DNA from: Flavobacteriales bacterium
Lineage (GTDB): Bacteria > Bacteroidota > Bacteroidia > Flavobacteriales_D > Sanyastnellaceae
Assembly (NCBI GenBank): GCA_015663855.1
Contig: DQRJ01000146.1
Location: 1 to 39,005 of the forward strand
DNA length: 39,005 bases
Reading direction: 5' to 3'
In this document: positions 1 to 24,051 of the stretch, one piece after another
Layout of the letters: each line of letters opens with the position of its first letter
How positions within the stretch are numbered: position 1 is the stretch's first letter
Translations under genes and position numbers: made by a program
The notes under the pieces: generated by a model
Seen by the model: only the letters and a program-made list of their open reading frames with translations
Databases searched by the model: none
What the model was told of the DNA's origin: nothing

Positions 1-1835
1 ACTTTAATTCCTCCAGAGTTTATGATTTGACTTACTCTACCTATCCATCTGAAACTCGTAGAGCTGAGGAGTTCAACCACGTCGTCTGTAACTAAGCCAG
101 TTACGTTGCGTGTAGGAGCGTTGATGATCAGTTGTCTTGTCTCCGAGGTCTTGAATGAAACTCCCGGTAATGCTGTGAAAGGAAAGTTAGAGAATGGGGT
201 ATGTATCGCTGTGGTGGCTTCTTGCGAGATTTTTCTAAGAGCTATGTGTGTGATAGTTTCTGTCATTCCGAATCCCTCCCAAACCTCAACTTCTACCGGT
301 AATTGTCTTTTTAACTTCTCCGAGACAGCTCCGCCCCCTAGAAGTAGTTTCTTTACTTGTGGAAAAGAGGGCAGGAGTGAAGTGCACTGATGTGGAGTGA
401 GAGAAAGGAAGTCAATGGGCTTTTCGAAAACAGGTCTTGCCTTAGGTTCAGCGATTTCGATATCACACCCGCCTACAATTGCACGAATCAACATCATTCT
501 GCCAGCAACGAAATCTATCGGCATTGCCATTGCAAGCCTATCTCCTTCACCTAAGTCGAAGAATTCTAAGGTGGCTTTGGCACTCGAAATTAAGGCTTCT
601 CGTGAGTGTGTGATTTCACGAGCACTTCCGCTAGATCCAGAAGTTGTGAAAATTAATGAAGTTGTCGAATTATTAAACCAAACCTCTAGCACTTCCGCCA
701 CCCCCTCAGTCCATAAAGGTCTTTGAAGATTGTCTTTAAATTTCCGAGCTCCTTCTTCACTTAGTTCGAATGATTGACCGGCACAGTAAAGAAAGCTAGG
801 TTTGGAATGATCAGAGTGAGAGTACAATTTACCCTCTGAAATGAACAAAGTTGAATCAGTATTGTTTGTGAATAAACTCCCCGTGCCAAGCCCCTGAGCC
901 ATATCCTGACTAATCACAGTCGTGGTCCATTCAGAAATTGCAGCGAGCCCCACATTCGATTCTAATGCGGAAGTCGCCCACCAACCTATACCCAGGTCAT
1001 TAGCGATATCTACGAATTCCTTTGCAGACTCAAGACCTCCAATTAAACTAGGTTTTAAAACGATATATGCAGGCTTCAATTTTTTTAATAAATCTATCCT
1101 TTCTTTCCTTTGGTGAACCCCGATAAGTTCCTCGTCGAGCGCAATGGGGATGGGTGAATTTTCACACAATTCCTTCATCTGGGAAAGTCTTCCCGCGGGA
1201 ATAGGCTGTTCGATGCTATGTAAACATAGATGTTCCAGAGCTTTCAGCTTGTCAAGTGCACTAAGACCATCCCCGACATCTTTTCCGAAAGCGCCATTAG
1301 CATCAATTCGAATTGTGAATTCGCCCTTGGGGCACTTACTCCGAATCGCTTCAAGCATTTCAAGTTCTTCATGAAAAGGAAGAGTCCCGACCTTTAACTT
1401 AATGGTCTTAAACCCCTTATCGACAAGCTCATCGACCTGCTTGAGCATGCTTTCTTGACTCCCCATCCAGACCAAACCATTAATAGGAATCCCACCTTTC
1501 CACTTTTCGCTACCGTCTCTATAAAAGTCAATAAGAGCGGTCTCTACGGCAAATCTAACTGCGGGTAATGTCTTAGGAACAGCATCTAAATCTATCGAGT
1601 CCGTTCTCGTCAATCGCTCCAAATATTCTTCAGCCTCACTCTCCGACTCTAGGCTTAACCCAGGGATTAAACTACATTCCCCCACGCCTGTTCTCCCTTC
1701 ATTATTCCGTATCGTCAGAAAGAAAGAAGGCTTGAAGGTCAATGTGTCTCTCGAAGTTTGAGCGGGTTTCTTAAACTCGAGGGGGTGTCGTATAAACTCA
1801 ATGCTTACGCCTTTGGCATATTTGCGACTATCCAT
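1..1835 (-). CDS. menC-menE: MenC-MenE fusion: o-succinylbenzoate synthase fused to o-succinylbenzoate-CoA ligase (C-terminus runs off the left edge)
   Basis: Hand translation of the minus frame from ATG at 1835 to the window edge shows no stop in 611 codons. Enolase-superfamily MenC motifs: TIKLKVG, RIDANGAFG, SIEQP, ALDEE, VLKPSLIGG. Adenylate-forming motifs: FTTSGSSGSAREI, EGFGMTETITHIA, GRVSQIINSGGIK. Absent from the supplied ORF track because it is edge-truncated. Confidence 0.9.
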   Translation of the reverse strand, partial: MDSRKYAKGVSIEFIRHPLEFKKPAQTSRDTLTFKPSFFLTIRNNEGRTGVGECSLIPGLSLESESEAEEYLERLTRTDSIDLDAVPKTLPAVRFAVETALIDFYRDGSEKWKGGIPINGLVWMGSQESMLKQVDELVDKGFKTIKLKVGTLPFHEELEMLEAIRSKCPKGEFTIRIDANGAFGKDVGDGLSALDKLKALEHLCLHSIEQPIPAGRLSQMKELCENSPIPIALDEELIGVHQRKERIDLLKKLKPAYIVLKPSLIGGLESAKEFVDIANDLGIGWWATSALESNVGLAAISEWTTTVISQDMAQGLGTGSLFTNNTDSTLFISEGKLYSHSDHSKPSFLYCAGQSFELSEEGARKFKDNLQRPLWTEGVAEVLEVWFNNSTTSLIFTTSGSSGSAREITHSREALISSAKATLEFFDLGEGDRLAMAMPIDFVAGRMMLIRAIVGGCDIEIAEPKARPVFEKPIDFLSLTPHQCTSLLPSFPQVKKLLLGGGAVSEKLKRQLPVEVEVWEGFGMTETITHIALRKISQEATTAIHTPFSNFPFTALPGVSFKTSETRQLIINAPTRNVTGLVTDDVVELLSSTSFRWIGRVSQIINSGGIK

Positions 1836-1838
1836 TAT

Positions 1839-2789
1839 CTACACCGTTACGGTTAGGAACATAAATAAAGCTACCACAAAAGAACTCAGCGCCACCTTTT
1901 TCAATTCCGGGTCCAAGAGTCGCGGCTCTTTATTTCGCACAACAAAAACCAAATGATTCATCTGAACTAGTCCTATCAAAACGTACCACATTCCGCCCCT
2001 CCATGAAACCAAATCCCCCCACCCTAGAATGAACGGTAGCATAAGCCCCCATGCTATAATTAATAACCCCGCGTGATATCGTTTTCCCCCTTCAAATCCG
2101 AGCCTAACAACGAGCGTATTTTTATTGTGCTTTTTATCGTTTTCATGATCGCGCAAGTTGTTCAAGTTCAGCACCGCTACGGCCATAAGTCCAGAAAACG
2201 AAGCGGGCAAAAGCCAAACAATTTCAAACCGATGGCTCAATAAATACGCCACTCCTAGAACTCCGATATAGCCGAAAAATAACATCACGTACACGTCACC
2301 AAGTCCCTTATAACCATATGATTTAGAGCCCATCGTATAACGTAACGCTGCAGCTATTCCGAACACCCCTAAAATCACGAGTACTAATACTCCAAATCCC
2401 TGCGTCATAGCTTCGATTTGGAAATCAAAAGCAAACCCAATAGTTGCTAAGCCCGCTACAAATCCCTTCACTGAAGTAGCAATTAAAGCCCTCTTCATTT
2501 CGACCTCTGTTATCTCACCTGACGCCATAGCTCTATCCGACCTTTCTGGTCCGTCCGTACCTTTTTTAAAGTCGCCATAATCGTTTGCGAAATTCGCCAA
2601 AACTTGAAGGAACACTACCGTCAATACCGCTAAAGAAACCACGATGAAAAACCGCTCGTTTTCACTCGAGGTATAGTTGGAAACTCCATCATACATTCGA
2701 GCCACAGCCGCTCCAATTAGTACGCAGCTTACAGCAAGAGGAAGTGTTCTAGGCCTCCCAGCTTTTATCCAAGCACTTAGTGTTGCCAT
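1839..2789 (-). CDS. menA: 1,4-dihydroxy-2-naphthoate polyprenyltransferase (UbiA family)
   Basis: KAGRPRTLPLAVSCVLIGAAVA, NDYGDFKKGTDGPERSDR, NNLRDHENDKKHNKNTLVVRLG; lies in the men cluster. Confidence 0.93.
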   Translation of the reverse strand: MATLSAWIKAGRPRTLPLAVSCVLIGAAVARMYDGVSNYTSSENERFFIVVSLAVLTVVFLQVLANFANDYGDFKKGTDGPERSDRAMASGEITEVEMKRALIATSVKGFVAGLATIGFAFDFQIEAMTQGFGVLVLVILGVFGIAAALRYTMGSKSYGYKGLGDVYVMLFFGYIGVLGVAYLLSHRFEIVWLLPASFSGLMAVAVLNLNNLRDHENDKKHNKNTLVVRLGFEGGKRYHAGLLIIAWGLMLPFILGWGDLVSWRGGMWYVLIGLVQMNHLVFVVRNKEPRLLDPELKKVALSSFVVALFMFLTVTV

Positions 2790-2803: not shown

Positions 2804-3625
2804 TCAAGGAAACTTAGGGTACTTCTTAAAGTCAGGGTCTCTCTTCTCTAAAAACGCGTTCTTACCTTCCTGCGCCTCCTCCATGAGGTAGTACATCAGA
2901 GTAGCATCTCCTGCAAAATCCATCAAGCCTTGCTGTCCATCAAGATCAGCATTCAAACCACGTTTAATCATCCTGATAGCCATAGGCGAGCGCTTCATAA
3001 TCGTTCTACACCACTCCACAGTCGTATCCTCAAGATCCGCCATTGGAACCACCTTATTCACCATTCCCATCTCCTCCGACTCCTTCGCTGTGTACTGCTC
3101 ACAAAGGAACCAGATCTCACGTGCTTTTTTCTGTCCCACTTGAGCTGCTAGATAGCTTGAGCCAAACCCGGCATCGAAACTTCCTACCTTCGGACCTGTT
3201 TGTCCAAACTTTGCATGTTCCGCTGCAATCGTAAGATCACAAACGACATGAAGAACGTGTCCGCCACCGATAGCGTAACCGTTAACCATTGCGATTACGG
3301 GCTTAGGAAGGGATCTAATTCTCTTCTGGAGGTCTAGAACATTCAAGCGTGGGATGCCGTCCTTTCCGATGTATCCCCCAACGCCCTTTACGTTTTGGTC
3401 TCCGCCACTACAAAAAGCCACGTCGCCATCTCCTGTAAGCACGACCACTCCGACTTCGTTCATCTCACGGGCGATATCCATAGCGTCTATCATCTCGATA
3501 TTCGTTTCCGGACGGAAGGCGTTTAGCACTTTAGGGCGACAAATCGTAATCTTGGCAATACCTTCAAAGTACTCAAAACGAATATCTTCGTACTCTTTAA
3601 TTGAAGTCCAACTATAATTACTCAT
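2804..3625 (-). CDS. menB: 1,4-dihydroxy-2-naphthoyl-CoA synthase (crotonase family)
   Basis: [61 protein letters not shown]. Confidence 0.96.
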
Positions 3626-5300
3626 GTTCTCTTGTTAATCTTAACTCACGTAAATATTTCGTATAAGTAATCGCGCTTATTTCGGGTGGAGTCGAAATTT
3701 CTAAAATGGCTGCACCATCGATTTTTCCGAGATCTCCTATTCCTTTTTCAGTACTTTCCAAATCTTCTGCACAAAAGTAAGCTACCCCGCAGAAGTGAGC
3801 TGCAGCTTTGATAGAAGTTTTAGGTTTGGTCGTGAAAAACTTATCAAGTAGTCCAGTTTTTTCAGGACCATCAAGCCACTTGAAAATATCACCTCCACCG
3901 TTATTCACAACAATAATTTTCAAATTCGACGGGACTTCCTGCACCGAAGCAAGCCCATTGATGTCGTATAAAAATGCCACATCTCCAGTAATTAACGTCA
4001 CGCTTTTCGGGTTATCCTTGTTTTCAGCTATTCGGCATAGAGCTAAAGCGTGCCCTACCGCCGTTGATGTACAGCCGTCAATCCCTGCAACTCCTCTGTT
4101 TGCATGAAATACCCTATGTTTTCCGCTCTCGTATAGCATTGCATATCTTACAGAAGTGCTGTTTGCAAAGTGAAGACGATCATCCGTAACAGTTCTTAGG
4201 ATTATCTCAAAAGCAAGTAAGTCACTCCACTCCACATCTTTAATCAACTCCTGATGGACTCGTCTCAATCGAGCCTTCTCATCACGAAACTGCTCCACAA
4301 AGGCCTCTTCCTGTTCTATCTCTCTGATAAATCTTCTTGTCCACTCAATTGGCTCTGTTTCTACTGTAGTCTCTAATAGGCCAAACATATCCCACCCTTC
4401 ACCATCATTCCCAACGTGTACGTGAGGAACTCCAAGTTTGGAAATTTGCTTACGAAGTCGTTTACTCATAATTGGCGACCCCATCGTAACAACTGCAGTA
4501 GGCGTGTGCTCTATGTTGTCGGGAAATAATTCACTTGATTCAATAATAGAATCTCCAGTTATTCCAGAAAATTTCTCAAACACCCCAGCTATTCCATCTA
4601 CAGAACACCTTTCCTTTTTATCGCGACAGTTCCTAGGTCCACCTATAAATAGCGTTCTAGTCCCGCTTTCTTTCAATATTTCAGGAATCGTAAAATCGCT
4701 TTCTGACCTTTCCAAAGACTCCATTTCCTCACCCTTAACTTCTGCTAACCTCATTCCGTATAGCGGTTCCTCAAAGGGCAGGTTTAAGTGAGCCGCCCCC
4801 CCATAATTGGCTGAAGTCCAAGCTCGACTAGCTATGCTCGCAATTTCACTTTCACTAATTTCATTTTCGTCAATAGTCGCATTAAAGACTGTGTGTGCAT
4901 TGAAAAGACCTTGCTGCGAAACAGTTTGGCCGTGGCCAGCACCAGTAAAACGAGTAGGTCTGTCAGCTGTAATGCTGATAAGCGGTGTCCGCTGATGAAA
5001 AGCTTCGGCAATCGCTGGCCCGTGGTTGATTGCAGCAGACCCTGATGTACAAATCACAGCCGCAGGTTTTCCACTTTCTAAGCCCAAACCCAGTGCTACA
5101 TACCCCGCCGCTCTCTCGTCTATCACTACATGAGTTCTTACAAGAGGATTTCCCGCGAAAGCTATAGTGAGTGGCGCATTCCTCGACCCGGGGCTTATTA
5201 CTACGTCTCGCAGTCCCAACATGACCAAAGTTGTAGCAAGAACCGCCGCACCTTTGTGGTCTGAGCTTGTAACTCTTGGAATGTTTCCGTTTTCAGGCAT
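3618..5300 (-). CDS. menD: SEPHCHC synthase, ThDP-dependent
   Basis: Start region [37 protein letters not shown], ThDP-binding [12 protein letters not shown]...[10 protein letters not shown]; overlaps the menB start by 8 bp. Confidence 0.95.
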
Positions 5301-5408: not shown

Positions 5409-6389
5409 TTAAGCTAACGTTGTTTTAATTGCTTCAATTTTCGCTTCAGTTTCCATCCATTCGTCTTCGGGTATTGATCCTTCCACAATCCCACCACCGG
5501 CGAAAAGTCGGACGCCACCAATCATCCACTGGGCGGCACGAAGATTTACGTAGTAAGCACTACCTGAAGCTGTTTCTACTCCGAGATAGCCAGAGTAGTA
5601 GGCGCGATCAAGTCGCTCGTTAGCTCTGATAAATTCGCAAGCTAGTTTTAGAGGTCGGCCGCCAACAGCTGGAGTTGGATGCAGGTCGGCTGCGAGTTCT
5701 AAAATATCTCCTTTGATTGAGCATCGGAAACGAGTTTCTAAGTGTACCAAATCTCCATATTTCCTGTCTGATCTAGGTTCTATGCTCATTTCCTTTGCGC
5801 CGTGACTTTCGAGGACAGACTTTATGAATTCGGTGACTTGATTTTGTTCGTCTCGTTCTTTATCAGTCCAAGCATTGGTTTTATTGCCATTTATGGCGAC
5901 TCTCGTGCCTGCCAAAGAGACGGTTTCTATCCTGTTGTCGCTAGACGCAACGAGTAATTCGGGCGTTGCTCCACACCAAATTCCGCAACTCGGGTGGTCA
6001 ATCAAATACACGAAAGCATCTGGATGTTCCTTACATTTTAATTCGAAAGTAGCTTCCGGTGAGGCAGAGGTCTCGATTGCTAAGACTCTCGCTACAACTA
6101 CTTTCTCAAGTCTGTGGGTTGATATTTCGCGAAGAGCCGCGTTAACGGCTGCAAGATGTTCAGACTTAATTGTAGAGGATTTGTCGTAAGGAGTAACTAC
6201 TTCTAATGTGCCAGGTTTTGGCGTTTTTCCAATAACGACGTGCCCCCTCATTTCAATGGAAGGGTAGATGTCTGACGATTTGAACGGCGTAAATCGAAAA
6301 CACGAAGTGCCGCTATCCGACATCTCCATCGTATAGATTTCACCACTACCACTCCCAGGCGGTCTCCACCATACCCTCGGTTCACTCAT
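5409..6389 (-). CDS. menF: Isochorismate synthase (chorismate-binding family)
   Basis: ATPELLVAS, HPTPAVGGRPLKLACEFI, YSGYLGVETASGSAYYVNLRAAQ. Start set to the internal Met (MSEPRVWW), which forms an ATGA overlap with the upstream gene; the ORF track starts at 6425. Confidence 0.9.
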   Translation of the reverse strand: MSEPRVWWRPPGSGSGEIYTMEMSDSGTSCFRFTPFKSSDIYPSIEMRGHVVIGKTPKPGTLEVVTPYDKSSTIKSEHLAAVNAALREISTHRLEKVVVARVLAIETSASPEATFELKCKEHPDAFVYLIDHPSCGIWCGATPELLVASSDNRIETVSLAGTRVAINGNKTNAWTDKERDEQNQVTEFIKSVLESHGAKEMSIEPRSDRKYGDLVHLETRFRCSIKGDILELAADLHPTPAVGGRPLKLACEFIRANERLDRAYYSGYLGVETASGSAYYVNLRAAQWMIGGVRLFAGGGIVEGSIPEDEWMETEAKIEAIKTTLA

Positions 6390-6793
6390 GCTTTTATGAT
6401 CATAACGGTTAATCGTGAGGTGCAAATAATCTCTCCGTCCTCATTTTTCAAGTCTATAGACCAAACATGAAGTTTTCTGCCGCGATGCACGATTTGGGCT
6501 TCACCATAAACCCAACCACTTACCACGCTTTTCAGATGATTAGCGTTTACCTCAACACCTACTGCGGCTTTCCCCTCATCCTTGACCAGGAAATGCGACC
6601 CTATCGAACCTAGAGTTTCCGCCAAAACGACGCTTGCCCCTCCGTGGAGCATTCCGTAGGGCTGGTGAGTTCTAGAGTCCACCGGCATTCTACCAGTCAC
6701 TTTATCTTCCTCTATCGAAGTGATTTCGATTCCGAGTACTTCAGTGATAGTTCCTTTGCCTATTTCTTTTCCTAAGTCTTTATGATTTGTCAT
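6386..6793 (-). CDS. Hotdog-fold PaaI-type thioesterase, candidate DHNA-CoA thioesterase
   Basis: QPYGMLHGGASVVLAETLGSIGSH; first gene of the men block. Confidence 0.85.
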   Translation of the reverse strand: MTNHKDLGKEIGKGTITEVLGIEITSIEEDKVTGRMPVDSRTHQPYGMLHGGASVVLAETLGSIGSHFLVKDEGKAAVGVEVNANHLKSVVSGWVYGEAQIVHRGRKLHVWSIDLKNEDGEIICTSRLTVMIIKA

Positions 6794-8393: not shown

Positions 8394-9002
8394 TTACAAG
8401 TGTTCTTTCGACCCCTCCATTACCGTAGCGAGAATATCTCGAGCTCGGTATAATTGCGCCTTTACAGTACCTAAGGGAAGATCGAGTTCTTTAGCGATTT
8501 CGTCATAACTATACTCTTCGAAATACCTTAATTCGACAAGTCGTCTATATCTCGGCTTGAGCTTTGAAACGACATCTCGCATCCGTTCGACTCGTTGTTT
8601 TTTCTCGAGCATCTCTATAGGGTCCGGAGCATCATCTTTTACTGAAATCTGTAATTGATCTCCGTCTGCAGTAGTAAAGCCTCTATCTAAGGAAAGTGCT
8701 TTTATGCGTTTCTTCCTAATGAAATCAATACTGTGATTAGAAGCTATTTTAAAAAGCCAAGTAGAAAATGCAAATGCAGGAGTGTATTGGCTAAGTCTCT
8801 TAAACGCCTTTGCAAATGTTTCTATCGTTAGATCGTCTGCATCATCGTCGTTGAAAACCATGCGTCTGCATAAATGGAAAATAGCATCGCGATACCTCTC
8901 CATTAGCTCAGCATAGGCCTGTTGGTCGCTCTCTTTCGAAGCTCTAAGCACAAGAGCGTAGTCGTATTGTGCTTTTTCTGAGAGGTTTGGGTTTATTTCC
9001 AT
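8394..9002 (-). CDS. RNA polymerase sigma factor, ECF/sigma-70 family
   Basis: Region 2 DADDLTIETFAKAFKRLSQY...FSTWLFKIASNHSIDFIRKKR; region 4 LVELRYFEEYSYDEIAKELDLPLGTVKAQLYRAR. Start set to MEINPNLSEKAQ. Confidence 0.9.
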   Translation of the reverse strand: MEINPNLSEKAQYDYALVLRASKESDQQAYAELMERYRDAIFHLCRRMVFNDDDADDLTIETFAKAFKRLSQYTPAFAFSTWLFKIASNHSIDFIRKKRIKALSLDRGFTTADGDQLQISVKDDAPDPIEMLEKKQRVERMRDVVSKLKPRYRRLVELRYFEEYSYDEIAKELDLPLGTVKAQLYRARDILATVMEGSKEHL

Positions 9003-10108
9003 TGTTTGGTTTTGACAAGTATTCCATGAATTGCAAGTACTTGTCGAATCAGACCCATCAACGGTTCTAGCAAAAGCCAGATGGCGTCTCGGCCTGGTCG
9101 ACCTACTCGAAGTAGGAATGTTCGAAAGATAACACAGCGAACGAATGAATTTATCACCACTAACACCAGAGGTATCCAAAACTTACTGTGCATAAAGTTT
9201 AACTCATGTCCAGAGCTGAAAAAGACCCATAGAACTCCTCCGTATAGCATGAAGTCAGCTAAAATCGGCACGCTCAACATCCGGATAATAGGGGGGTTAT
9301 ATCTTACCCCCGTTGTTAAATGTCTCCTCATCTGTCTCATCCATCCTCCCCATGTTTCAGGCCAAACCGAATTGCATTGTCCTTCAATCCTCACTTCAGT
9401 CTCCACCTTAAACCCGGCATTTACAATTTCTTGAACGAAAAGGTCGTCATCTCCGGATGGGATATCGTCATGACTTTTAAATCCGTCGACCGCTCTCCAG
9501 CATGATTTTGTGAAAGCGATATTTCTCCCGACCCCCATGTACGGAAATCCCGCCTCGGCCATCCCTATGTAGTTTAGGGCTATGCGTTCCGCTTCGAAAT
9601 TTTGAAAACGACCTAGTAAACCTCGACCCTTTCTAGGTAAACTCACCCCTAACTTTAAGTCGTGCGAAATCCCTAGCCCGGCCGTCATCATTTCGGCCCA
9701 ACGTTTACTAGCGGGAACGCAATCTGCATCGGTACAAAGTATTAAATCATGTTTCGCCTTTTCAATCCCGACCGTTAATGGACGCTTCTTCCCGTTCCCC
9801 CCTCGAGCTAACCTAACGACCTCGACCGACTCCTCCCTCTTAGCCCAAGCATCGAGTTTTTTCGAGCTCCCGTCTGTACTCCCGTCATCTACGAGGACGA
9901 TTTGTGGAGGGGGAGGGGTTTGGTCTAAAAGAGACGAGACCAAACCATCCACAACCTCGACTTCATTATGAAAGCAAACAACTATGCTGTAGTTCGTGGA
10001 AATGTTAGGACGAAAGAAGAGGGGCTTGCGCCAGGCACCCATATGCCAAGCCCAACCCCCTCTCAATATCAAGCCAGCAAGCGCAATAGCCGTAGCGATT
10101 TCGAACAT
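8993..10108 (-). CDS. Family 2 glycosyltransferase, membrane-associated
   Basis: YSIVVCFHNEVEVVDGLVSSLLDQ, IVLVDDGSTDGSS, LCTDADCVP; C-terminal hydrophobic segments. Confidence 0.9.
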   Translation of the reverse strand: MFEIATAIALAGLILRGGWAWHMGAWRKPLFFRPNISTNYSIVVCFHNEVEVVDGLVSSLLDQTPPPPQIVLVDDGSTDGSSKKLDAWAKREESVEVVRLARGGNGKKRPLTVGIEKAKHDLILCTDADCVPASKRWAEMMTAGLGISHDLKLGVSLPRKGRGLLGRFQNFEAERIALNYIGMAEAGFPYMGVGRNIAFTKSCWRAVDGFKSHDDIPSGDDDLFVQEIVNAGFKVETEVRIEGQCNSVWPETWGGWMRQMRRHLTTGVRYNPPIIRMLSVPILADFMLYGGVLWVFFSSGHELNFMHSKFWIPLVLVVINSFVRCVIFRTFLLRVGRPGRDAIWLLLEPLMGLIRQVLAIHGILVKTKQWK

Positions 10109-20529: not shown

Positions 20530-23500
20530 ATGTCATTATTTCAGAATATAAAAGGAACTTTATTGCTGGTTTTATTTATAGGCGTAGTCAGTTTTGGTAT
20601 TTCGGGGAGAGTTTTATGTCAGGGCGATACAACTTGGGTTTCTACCTATACTTGGGAAGCCCAAAACAATCCCGAAACGAATTACGATAGTCCGGGGCGT
20701 AGGTGGTTCGATTTCCCATCGGCCGACAATGGAACACAGTATAGAAAGGTGCTTATGTACCATAACCTTAAGTGTTTCGATCAAGGAACGGCTGGAGGGT
20801 TAGGCTATGCTTGTGGAGAGTGGGATTACCTCTCGTATAGTTATTTGTTTGATCATACGGGAGAGCTTGATTCGACAAGCTTGACGCACCCGCTTTATAA
20901 GATTAACAACTCTAATTTCGAAATCGATTCAATCATATTATCTCCTATTGGAGGGATTCCATATGATACATTATTGACCGAATATTCACGTTCAATTCAT
21001 AGCGTTGTAGGTTCGGTTTCTTCATCGATTTCTCAGAGCGCTTTTATGTCGACAGATTTGATTTCGGATGCGGTTGGACAGAGATTGCAAATGGTTTGGT
21101 CTGAGGAAGAATTAAGCTCGATGGGAGTCGTAGTGGGGGTGCCCATAAAAAAAATATCATTAACGGTCGGGACGATTTCGTCAGATGTATTAACGCTACG
21201 CTACAAATTCACGAACGTAGTCAATCTCGAAAACGTCGATGAAAACGGATGGGTCACGGTATTTCAGTACCCAGTAAACACCACAGGTCTACTCGAGTTA
21301 GGACTAGACGCAAACATAGTCTGGGACGGGACTTCGAATCTCATGTTCGACCTCTCGTTCGAGAACCTTATTGTCGACCAGTGCGAGGTAGTTTCCGCGC
21401 CAGGAAAGGTCATTTTATTCGAGTCAAATGGCGGCTACGTACTATTGGACGGTGGCGATAAAATGGAGCTTGACGCAAGTTCGCTTCAGCCCCTTTCAGA
21501 CCAAATCACACTAGAGTGTTGGCTTAAGGGCGATCAAGATTGGCTTCCAGCGAACACCACGATTTTCGAAGGAGTAAATGCCGAGTCGCAGAGAGAATTA
21601 AACGTTCACATGCCTTGGAGTAATTCTAGAATTTATTGGGACGCTGGCTTCAGCGATGGTGGGTACGATAGGATCGATAAACAATCTAACGAGTCGGAGT
21701 TTGAGGCGACCTGGTCTCATTGGGCGTTCACGAAGAATGCCCAAACCGAACAGATGAAGATTTTCAGAAATGGCTTGGTTTGGCATGAAGGCGTTGATAA
21801 AGACAATTCCTTCGGTGTGATTTCCAAGATGTTTTTAGGGTCTGCTTACAACGATAACTACAGCTATAGAGGCGGCGTTGAGGATTTTCGTATCTGGAGT
21901 GTTGAGCTGAGTGAGGAAGTGATTTCGGAGTGGATGTATCGAACGGATATCACCGAGCATCCCTATGCTCAAAGTCTTATGGCGGTATATGATTTCGATG
22001 GAGATAATGGAACAGCAGAGCAACAGGATTTAGGGTCTCCATTCGGCGGATATTATTTCGGTGATGCAGGAAGGGTAACCTCAAGAGCGTCTGAATTATT
22101 TCTAAATCCTAGCGTTCCGAGCGGAGACTTAAGAGCTGCATTCCAGTTTACTCAGGGAGAAGATGTAGATTTTGAAAGTGAAACCGAATTTGTGGTTTCA
22201 TCCTATTTACAAGAAAAACCTCCTGTAAGCATTAGTACCTGGGCGGTCAACGGAAACGATGTTGATTGGGTTGATCTTCAGTACGGTTGGCCACACGATC
22301 AATTAATGATTACTTATAACGAACTTGGAGACACGATTTCTACTTACCCGATAAATGGCGAATCTGTTGAATTTTCTAATTCGAACTCTGAGCTGAACTA
22401 TTTCGGACTTCCTTTTGATGTGGTAGACAGATATGAATTAGGAAGATATATTACACCTTACGGAATAAATCTATCATTAGGACCTGATGGTTGGACGTGG
22501 ATTTACGATGTTACTGATTACCTCCACCTTCTCAGAGATAGCGTTGAATTAGAGTGCGGGAATTGGCAGGAATTACTTGACTTAAAATTCGCTTTTATAG
22601 GAGGTACGCCACCCCGTGATGTTAAGAGGGTTGAAGCTTTTTGGAATGGTACTTATAATTTAAATAACTGGAATGAGTCTGTTTCGGAGCATTCGTTTAC
22701 ACCTGATGAAGGGGAGGAGATGTTCAGGTTGGTCACACGCGCAAGTGGTCACGGGTTTGGTCAGGGTAATAATTGTGCAGAATTCTGCTATAACACTCAC
22801 AGTGTTAATGTAAATGGTGATGAGCAATGGAGCTGGGAGATAATGCAGGAGTGCGCCGACAATCCGCTATACCCTCAAGGTGGGACTTGGATTTATGATA
22901 GAGCAGCTTGGTGTCCTGGTGCGCCCGTTGCAACCCGTCGCTTCGAGTTGACTCCCTTCGTCATGAACCTCTCTGATTTCATGGTTGAGTATGACATCAC
23001 TGATGATCCCTACGGGAATTACAGGATGGAAGGCCAAATCATTTCCTACGGCGCCCCTAACATGTCTCACGATGTGGAGCTCATGGATATACTTTCTCCA
23101 AATAACAGGAAGGTTCTTTCAAGATGGAATCCAGTATGTGAGGATCCCGTTGTGAGCATTAGAAATAACGGATCGGAGCCTATGGTTGCATGCACATTCC
23201 TATATGGTGTAACCGGGGAGGAGCCACAATCTTATGTCTGGGAGCCGGAGTCTCCTTTAGCATTTTTAGAAGAGGCGGACGTAAGTCTTCCTTATGACGC
23301 TCCCGACTACACTCAGGGTGACGACGATGATTTGCTAGACTTCAGTGTTGATGTCACCCTTTCAAATGGTCTCGACGAAGAGGTGAGCAACGGACAAGGT
23401 CACTCATCGTTCCGTCGTCCTCCAACTTGGGCGTATAACGATTTGGATGATAACCGCATAATAATTTGGACTAAAACAAACAACAATCCATTCGAGACTT

Positions 23501-24051
23501 CGGTAGAATTAACGAACAGGAATAACACCCTCATCTGGTCCAAATCGTACGATCAGGCAAACACCATTTATAGGGATACCTTAGAATTGAATGCCGGTTG
23601 CTACAGGTTTACAGTGAAAGATGCCGATGACGACGGTCTAGAGTTTTGGGCGAACAACGATGGAGGAGGTTACGTGCGCTTTAAGAAAGTTGCGGGAGGT
23701 AATTTCTCGAATTTAGAAAGCGATTTCGGAAAGTCGATATCTCAAGCTTTTCGATTCGAAACGAATTTGATTTCGGCAGTAGAAGAAGAAGTGGCAATTG
23801 TAGAAACTCCTTCAATAACGGTCTTTCCTAACCCCACTAAAGGAATAGTGAAATTGAGTGTTGTTGGTTTCAAAAAATCAGTGGATTGGGTCTTGAGAAA
23901 CAGCTTGGGCCAACAAATCGACACAGGTAATTACACGCCTTCGGAGGGTTACCTCCTAAATCTAGATCTTTCGAATCACGGCTCAGGTATGTACAGCATA
24001 GTTTTTTCAAATGAAAATCAAAGCGCAGTTTCTTGGATAATTCGCGACTAA
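20530..24051 (+). CDS. Large secreted LamG-domain protein with T9SS sorting domain; outer regions resemble peptide-N-glycosidase F-related proteins
   Basis: Signal peptide; KVLMYHNLKCFDQ...YACGEWDYLSYSYLFD; LamG-like QITLECWLKGDQDW...EDFRIWSVELSEE; AFIGGTPPRDVKRVEAFWNGTY; C-terminal VFPNPTKGIVKLSV...GMYSIVFSN. Confidence 0.7.
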   Translation: MSLFQNIKGTLLLVLFIGVVSFGISGRVLCQGDTTWVSTYTWEAQNNPETNYDSPGRRWFDFPSADNGTQYRKVLMYHNLKCFDQGTAGGLGYACGEWDYLSYSYLFDHTGELDSTSLTHPLYKINNSNFEIDSIILSPIGGIPYDTLLTEYSRSIHSVVGSVSSSISQSAFMSTDLISDAVGQRLQMVWSEEELSSMGVVVGVPIKKISLTVGTISSDVLTLRYKFTNVVNLENVDENGWVTVFQYPVNTTGLLELGLDANIVWDGTSNLMFDLSFENLIVDQCEVVSAPGKVILFESNGGYVLLDGGDKMELDASSLQPLSDQITLECWLKGDQDWLPANTTIFEGVNAESQRELNVHMPWSNSRIYWDAGFSDGGYDRIDKQSNESEFEATWSHWAFTKNAQTEQMKIFRNGLVWHEGVDKDNSFGVISKMFLGSAYNDNYSYRGGVEDFRIWSVELSEEVISEWMYRTDITEHPYAQSLMAVYDFDGDNGTAEQQDLGSPFGGYYFGDAGRVTSRASELFLNPSVPSGDLRAAFQFTQGEDVDFESETEFVVSSYLQEKPPVSISTWAVNGNDVDWVDLQYGWPHDQLMITYNELGDTISTYPINGESVEFSNSNSELNYFGLPFDVVDRYELGRYITPYGINLSLGPDGWTWIYDVTDYLHLLRDSVELECGNWQELLDLKFAFIGGTPPRDVKRVEAFWNGTYNLNNWNESVSEHSFTPDEGEEMFRLVTRASGHGFGQGNNCAEFCYNTHSVNVNGDEQWSWEIMQECADNPLYPQGGTWIYDRAAWCPGAPVATRRFELTPFVMNLSDFMVEYDITDDPYGNYRMEGQIISYGAPNMSHDVELMDILSPNNRKVLSRWNPVCEDPVVSIRNNGSEPMVACTFLYGVTGEEPQSYVWEPESPLAFLEEADVSLPYDAPDYTQGDDDDLLDFSVDVTLSNGLDEEVSNGQGHSSFRRPPTWAYNDLDDNRIIIWTKTNNNPFETSVELTNRNNTLIWSKSYDQANTIYRDTLELNAGCYRFTVKDADDDGLEFWANNDGGGYVRFKKVAGGNFSNLESDFGKSISQAFRFETNLISAVEEEVAIVETPSITVFPNPTKGIVKLSVVGFKKSVDWVLRNSLGQQIDTGNYTPSEGYLLNLDLSNHGSGMYSIVFSNENQSAVSWIIRD

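Follow-up and report, generated by a model that had tools for sequence, protein, structure and literature searches.

Among known pathway fusions, the closest is the PHYLLO protein of plants and algae, a MenF-MenD-MenC-MenH fusion alongside which MenE remains a separate protein (PMC2412073, PMC6189191). Like the protein described here, PHYLLO joins MenC to other enzymes of its own pathway; unlike it, PHYLLO contains no MenE and differs in the partners, their order and the lineage. The separate MenC and short MenE proteins of Bacteroidota, the latter of about 336-374 aa in the relatives, share with the fusion the domain families, the order and the motifs, and have lengths similar to those of its halves, whereas the fusion is a single polypeptide that lacks an ATGA overlap and has a partly shortened junction. 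The nucleoside triphosphate pyrophosphatase RdgB/HAM1 (Ham1p_like) is normally a separate protein too, and is unfused in the nearest relative (L002/L031) of the window, that is, the whole stretch of 39,005 nucleotides that was analyzed; in three other relatives, a complete Ham1 domain stands at the 3' end of the fusion. A search of the open-access literature turned up no account of a MenC-MenE or MenC-MenE-RdgB protein. Fusion of consecutive enzymes is a well-known kind of event, of which MenC-MenE is a modest case.

The window is the entire contig C43 of an assembly of 1.89 Mb (186 contigs, 84% complete). Positions 1835-3 of the minus strand form a single stop-free frame of 611 aa that begins with an ATG at 1835-1833 and runs off the contig end without a 3' stop. 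The first-pass annotation had claimed one continuous MenC-MenE reading frame, and this is confirmed: MenC and MenE are encoded in one frame of 611 codons without a stop, and the Pfam domains MR_MLE_C and AMP-binding are both found in the same polypeptide, as the annotation had proposed to check. The motifs that it named all lie within this frame. It was also correct in stating that the fusion is absent from the list of closed open reading frames, for which the only reason is that the frame leaves the contig. The parts of the frame are as follows.

3..644, minus strand: predicted MenE (OSB-CoA ligase, short Bacteroidota type) half, from the P-loop TSGSSG on (Pfam, TIGR01923, the L031 homologue, 4gs5)
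41-9, minus strand: GRVSQIINSGG, MenE motif
275-255, minus strand: GFGMTET, MenE motif
644-627, minus strand: TSGSSG (P-loop), MenE motif
645..815, minus strand: junction, residues ~341-397, the MenC tail plus the MenE N-terminal segment (fused and separate relatives compared)
816..1835, minus strand: predicted MenC (o-succinylbenzoate synthase) half, residues ~1-340 (Pfam, NCBIfam, motifs)
1061-1044, minus strand: VLKPSL, MenC motif
1142-1128, minus strand: ALDEE, MenC motif
1217-1203, minus strand: SIEQP, MenC motif
1310-1293, minus strand: RIDANG, MenC motif
1400-1386, minus strand: KLKVG, MenC motif

Because the window is an entire contig, neither a leftward extension nor the missing end can be read from the assembly, and neither the missing C-terminus nor rdgB was found elsewhere in it. 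Judging by the length of a complete relative from Bacteroidetes bacterium NORP19 (L031:4998-7100; 700 aa, 70% identity), some 87 C-terminal residues, with the A10 catalytic Lys region among them, fall past the end of the contig. The genome contains a single MenC/MenE locus, with no second match to either protein.

The N-terminal half is a predicted OSB synthase, a specificity that is suggested by its motifs and by the men operon context. Pfam MR_MLE_C covers residues 130-303 (E=4e-25). The best NCBIfam family is menC (lowest E=2e-37), with scores below the curated cut-offs, narrowly so for TIGR01927 (128.7 bits against 130.55) and by a wide margin for the other MenC models; the nearest solved structure is 2pge (MenC). 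The active-site motifs (KxK, Asp, Glu, Asp, Lys) are intact in the window, so that the KxK, the three acidic metal ligands and the second Lys on the barrel typical of the enolase superfamily are all present, and across 15 fusions these motifs are invariant save for conservative changes. The C-terminal half is a predicted OSB-CoA ligase, as suggested by motifs, gene order and the absence of another copy. It contains the Pfam AMP-binding domain at residues 373-537 (E=1e-12) and has TIGR01923 (menE) as its best NCBIfam family with E=4e-20, at 72 bits against a cut-off of 330, the window copy being incomplete and of the short type and the model spanning 442 positions; a related short ligase has a solved structure, 4gs5. 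The motifs of adenylate-forming (ANL) enzymes detected in the window are TSGSSG, GFGMTE (A5), TDD and GR..NSGG (A7/A8); A10 (GK..R), which in the window falls beyond the contig end, is found in all complete relatives, and the P-loop, A5, A7/A8 and A10 motifs are retained in every fusion that reaches that far. Between near relatives, dN/dS is 0.10-0.22 for the MenC half and 0.13-0.27 for the MenE half.

The fusion is the last gene in a menaquinone (vitamin K2) cluster, menF-menD-menB-menA-menCE, all on the minus strand:

1839..2789, minus strand: menA, 1,4-dihydroxy-2-naphthoate prenyltransferase, next upstream, ending 3 nt before the fusion ATG (TIGR00751, 225.7 bits, over the cut-off)
2804..3625, minus strand: menB, DHNA-CoA synthase (TIGR01929, 452 bits, over the cut-off)
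3618..5300, minus strand: menD, SEPHCHC synthase (TIGR00173, 301 bits, over the cut-off)
5409..6425, minus strand: menF, isochorismate synthase (TIGR00543, 208 bits, just below the cut-off of 224.75; Pfam Chorismate_bind, 167 bits)
6386..6793, minus strand: 4HBT thioesterase (Pfam 4HBT, E=1e-16), by its position the probable DHNA-CoA thioesterase of the cluster

In complete relatives, the fusion is followed by rdgB (Ham1p_like) and then by one further gene, which, from inspection of the sequence by eye, we take to be accA. In the window, the pathway is otherwise encoded as far as MenA; no MenH (SHCHC synthase) scored over the curated cut-off in the four genus genomes G000, G004, G005 and G008. 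MenH is often absent from bacteria with the Men pathway (PMC6189191). Elsewhere in the window, a sigma-70-like reading frame taken from its first TTG (8394-9179, minus strand) overlaps the upstream glycosyltransferase frame (8993-10108, minus strand) by 187 nt, most likely a start called too early, and positions 20530-24051 of the plus strand encode a secreted protein of 1173 aa, in which laminin-G-like, PNGase F C-terminal-like and Por secretion tail domains are recognized.

In each of the 14 genus genomes, among them that of the window, MenC and MenE share one stop-free frame at about 48-71% identity, and the complete double fusions are 662-700 aa long. As is expected of a bifunctional fusion, the frame is uninterrupted, has no internal start that is conserved, and persists across species. 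In the rest of the family, the match tables list no fusion among 93 genomes with a match in other genera, and for about twenty of the separate menC/menE loci the DNA itself was read. In these loci the two genes are adjacent, and in most of them menE starts at -4 relative to the menC end, with a 4-nt ATGA overlap. In three genomes from other genera of the family (G017, G092 and G087), one TAA alone separates menC from menE, which are in frame; counted over this and other families, the loci in frame with one stop between the two genes number five (L013, L032, L033, L016 and L058).

An independent MenC-MenE fusion of 704 aa was detected in another family of the order (G166, L043:591-2702, minus strand), and in its best-matching relative (G038), menC and menE are in frame with one TGA between them; the other genomes of that family yielded no full-length stop-free match. 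Among the matches listed for a phylum-wide sample of 398 genomes, there was no further verified fusion. G746 was considered as a third case on the strength of an open-frame figure of 736 aa and was rejected because the DNA (L058) has a stop between menC and menE; the open-frame length given by the genome search (G746:C3) can span a stop between two matches and is insufficient alone for calling fusions. The trees of the MenC and MenE halves both group the genus fusions (98/94 and 90/90 support, respectively), and both require a second, separate origin for L043. The fusion has arisen at least twice among the matches listed, a count that is given as a minimum because the larger searches covered those matches only. 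The initial claim that MenC and MenE are normally separate holds, with no other fusion in the family and a single independent one in the sample taken at order level; and the claim that the fusion joins consecutive steps gains support from the domain matches, the 14 of 14 genus genomes, the intact motifs and purifying selection.

The first-pass annotation was mistaken, however, in describing a short linker between the domains: the FELSEEG...WFNN stretch contains no added linker and consists mainly of the MenC tail and an ordinary MenE N-terminus. In the relatives, the tail of separate MenC, counted from GLGTG, is about 31-60 residues long, and separate MenE has 36-76 residues ahead of the P-loop, a stretch that in many cases closes with a similar W..L..WW/WF segment. 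In the fusions, GLGTG and the P-loop are 56-83 residues apart, a spacing from which it follows that the two ends were just joined and trimmed. The junction is the least conserved part of the protein (across the genus, 22-59% identical to the window vs. 48-71% for the domains), with dN/dS of 0.11-0.26 between near relatives.

The frame continues past MenE into a full Ham1 domain in three genomes of the genus (G003, G008 and G012) that the tree groups in a single supported sub-clade. The open frames of these triple fusions amount to 879-896 aa, or 865-882 aa counted from the first start codon:

L008, 658-3294, minus strand: triple fusion
L009, 1471-4119, plus strand: triple fusion
L010, 652-3339, minus strand: triple fusion

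Each triple fusion holds the only RdgB detected in its genome. Several genomes of the genus that carry the double fusion have rdgB in the frame of menE after a single TAA, or overlapping the menE stop. RdgB is a nucleotide-pool enzyme with no role in menaquinone synthesis, and its fusion by the same route favors operon compaction with 1:1 co-expression over channeling of OSB.

Given these observations, we consider it very likely that the locus encodes a bifunctional MenC-MenE enzyme derived from fused, tightly coupled operon neighbors, for which 1:1 co-production suffices and no special channel is needed. The N-terminal enolase-superfamily domain would dehydrate SHCHC to OSB, the C-terminal short adenylate-forming ligase would convert OSB to OSB-CoA, and the latter would feed MenB, encoded just upstream. 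In this reading, the fusion arose once, in the stem of the genus, when a small indel or the loss of a stop joined adjacent menC and menE genes that were coupled in translation and probably overlapped by ATGA, and it has persisted ever since; tight gene overlap is likely to be the ancestral arrangement, from which fusion arises easily. If there is any benefit, the likely effect would be obligatory 1:1 production and proximity of consecutive enzymes, and the fusion may have a structural or kinetic advantage. Later, in one sub-clade, the same compaction would have added rdgB at the 3' end. The single frame, the intact motifs, the conservation across the genus, purifying selection, the sole copy in the genome and at least two origins are shown directly, whereas both activities, the fusion route and the absence of channeling are what we infer.

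A more far-reaching proposition would be that a bifunctional OSB synthase/OSB-CoA ligase not described before, fixed genus-wide and arisen at least twice, has in the sub-clade become a trifunctional MenC-MenE-RdgB protein, in which menaquinone synthesis and the cleaning of the nucleotide pool are coupled for a functional reason; taken as a whole, we regard this as unlikely. Slightly less likely still is that the selected benefit of the fusion is channeling, with the two active sites facing each other and passing OSB on without release. The steps are consecutive, and the genus-wide retention of the fusion as well as its two or more independent origins fit such a benefit; however, the variable length and poor conservation of the junction make a fixed geometry not evident, the pathway-unrelated rdgB was joined by the same route, and tight gene overlap makes fusion easy without selection. 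An AlphaFold model of the fusion built from a two-sequence alignment (pLDDT 38) gave no usable domain arrangement.

It appears improbable, too, and more so than channeling, that two working proteins result from the single frame, by internal initiation or proteolysis, so that the fusion exists at the gene level only. The old ATG of RdgB persists in the triple fusions, so that RdgB at least could be initiated internally; by contrast, the fusions have no conserved start codon where MenC meets MenE, and the L010 and L011 junctions contain no ATG, GTG or TTG at all, which implies that MenE is probably produced solely as part of the fusion. Finally, although this is a draft genome and the frame lies at a contig end, the chance that two genes are in fact separate and only look fused because of an assembly or sequencing error, through a lost stop or a frameshift, is negligible, given that the same uninterrupted frame occurs in 13 other, independent genus genomes down to about 50% identity, which rules out sequencing error as the source of the fusion, and that the junction itself is under purifying selection.

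The preferred reading, a bifunctional enzyme formed by operon compaction, places the window within a staged series, from overlapping genes through genes in frame with one stop to the double and then the triple fusion, which shows operon neighbors becoming one protein. With RdgB, a partner from outside the pathway, the series also cautions against taking every pathway fusion as a case of channeling. Furthermore, a single-chain MenC-MenE could serve for direct tests of OSB channeling.
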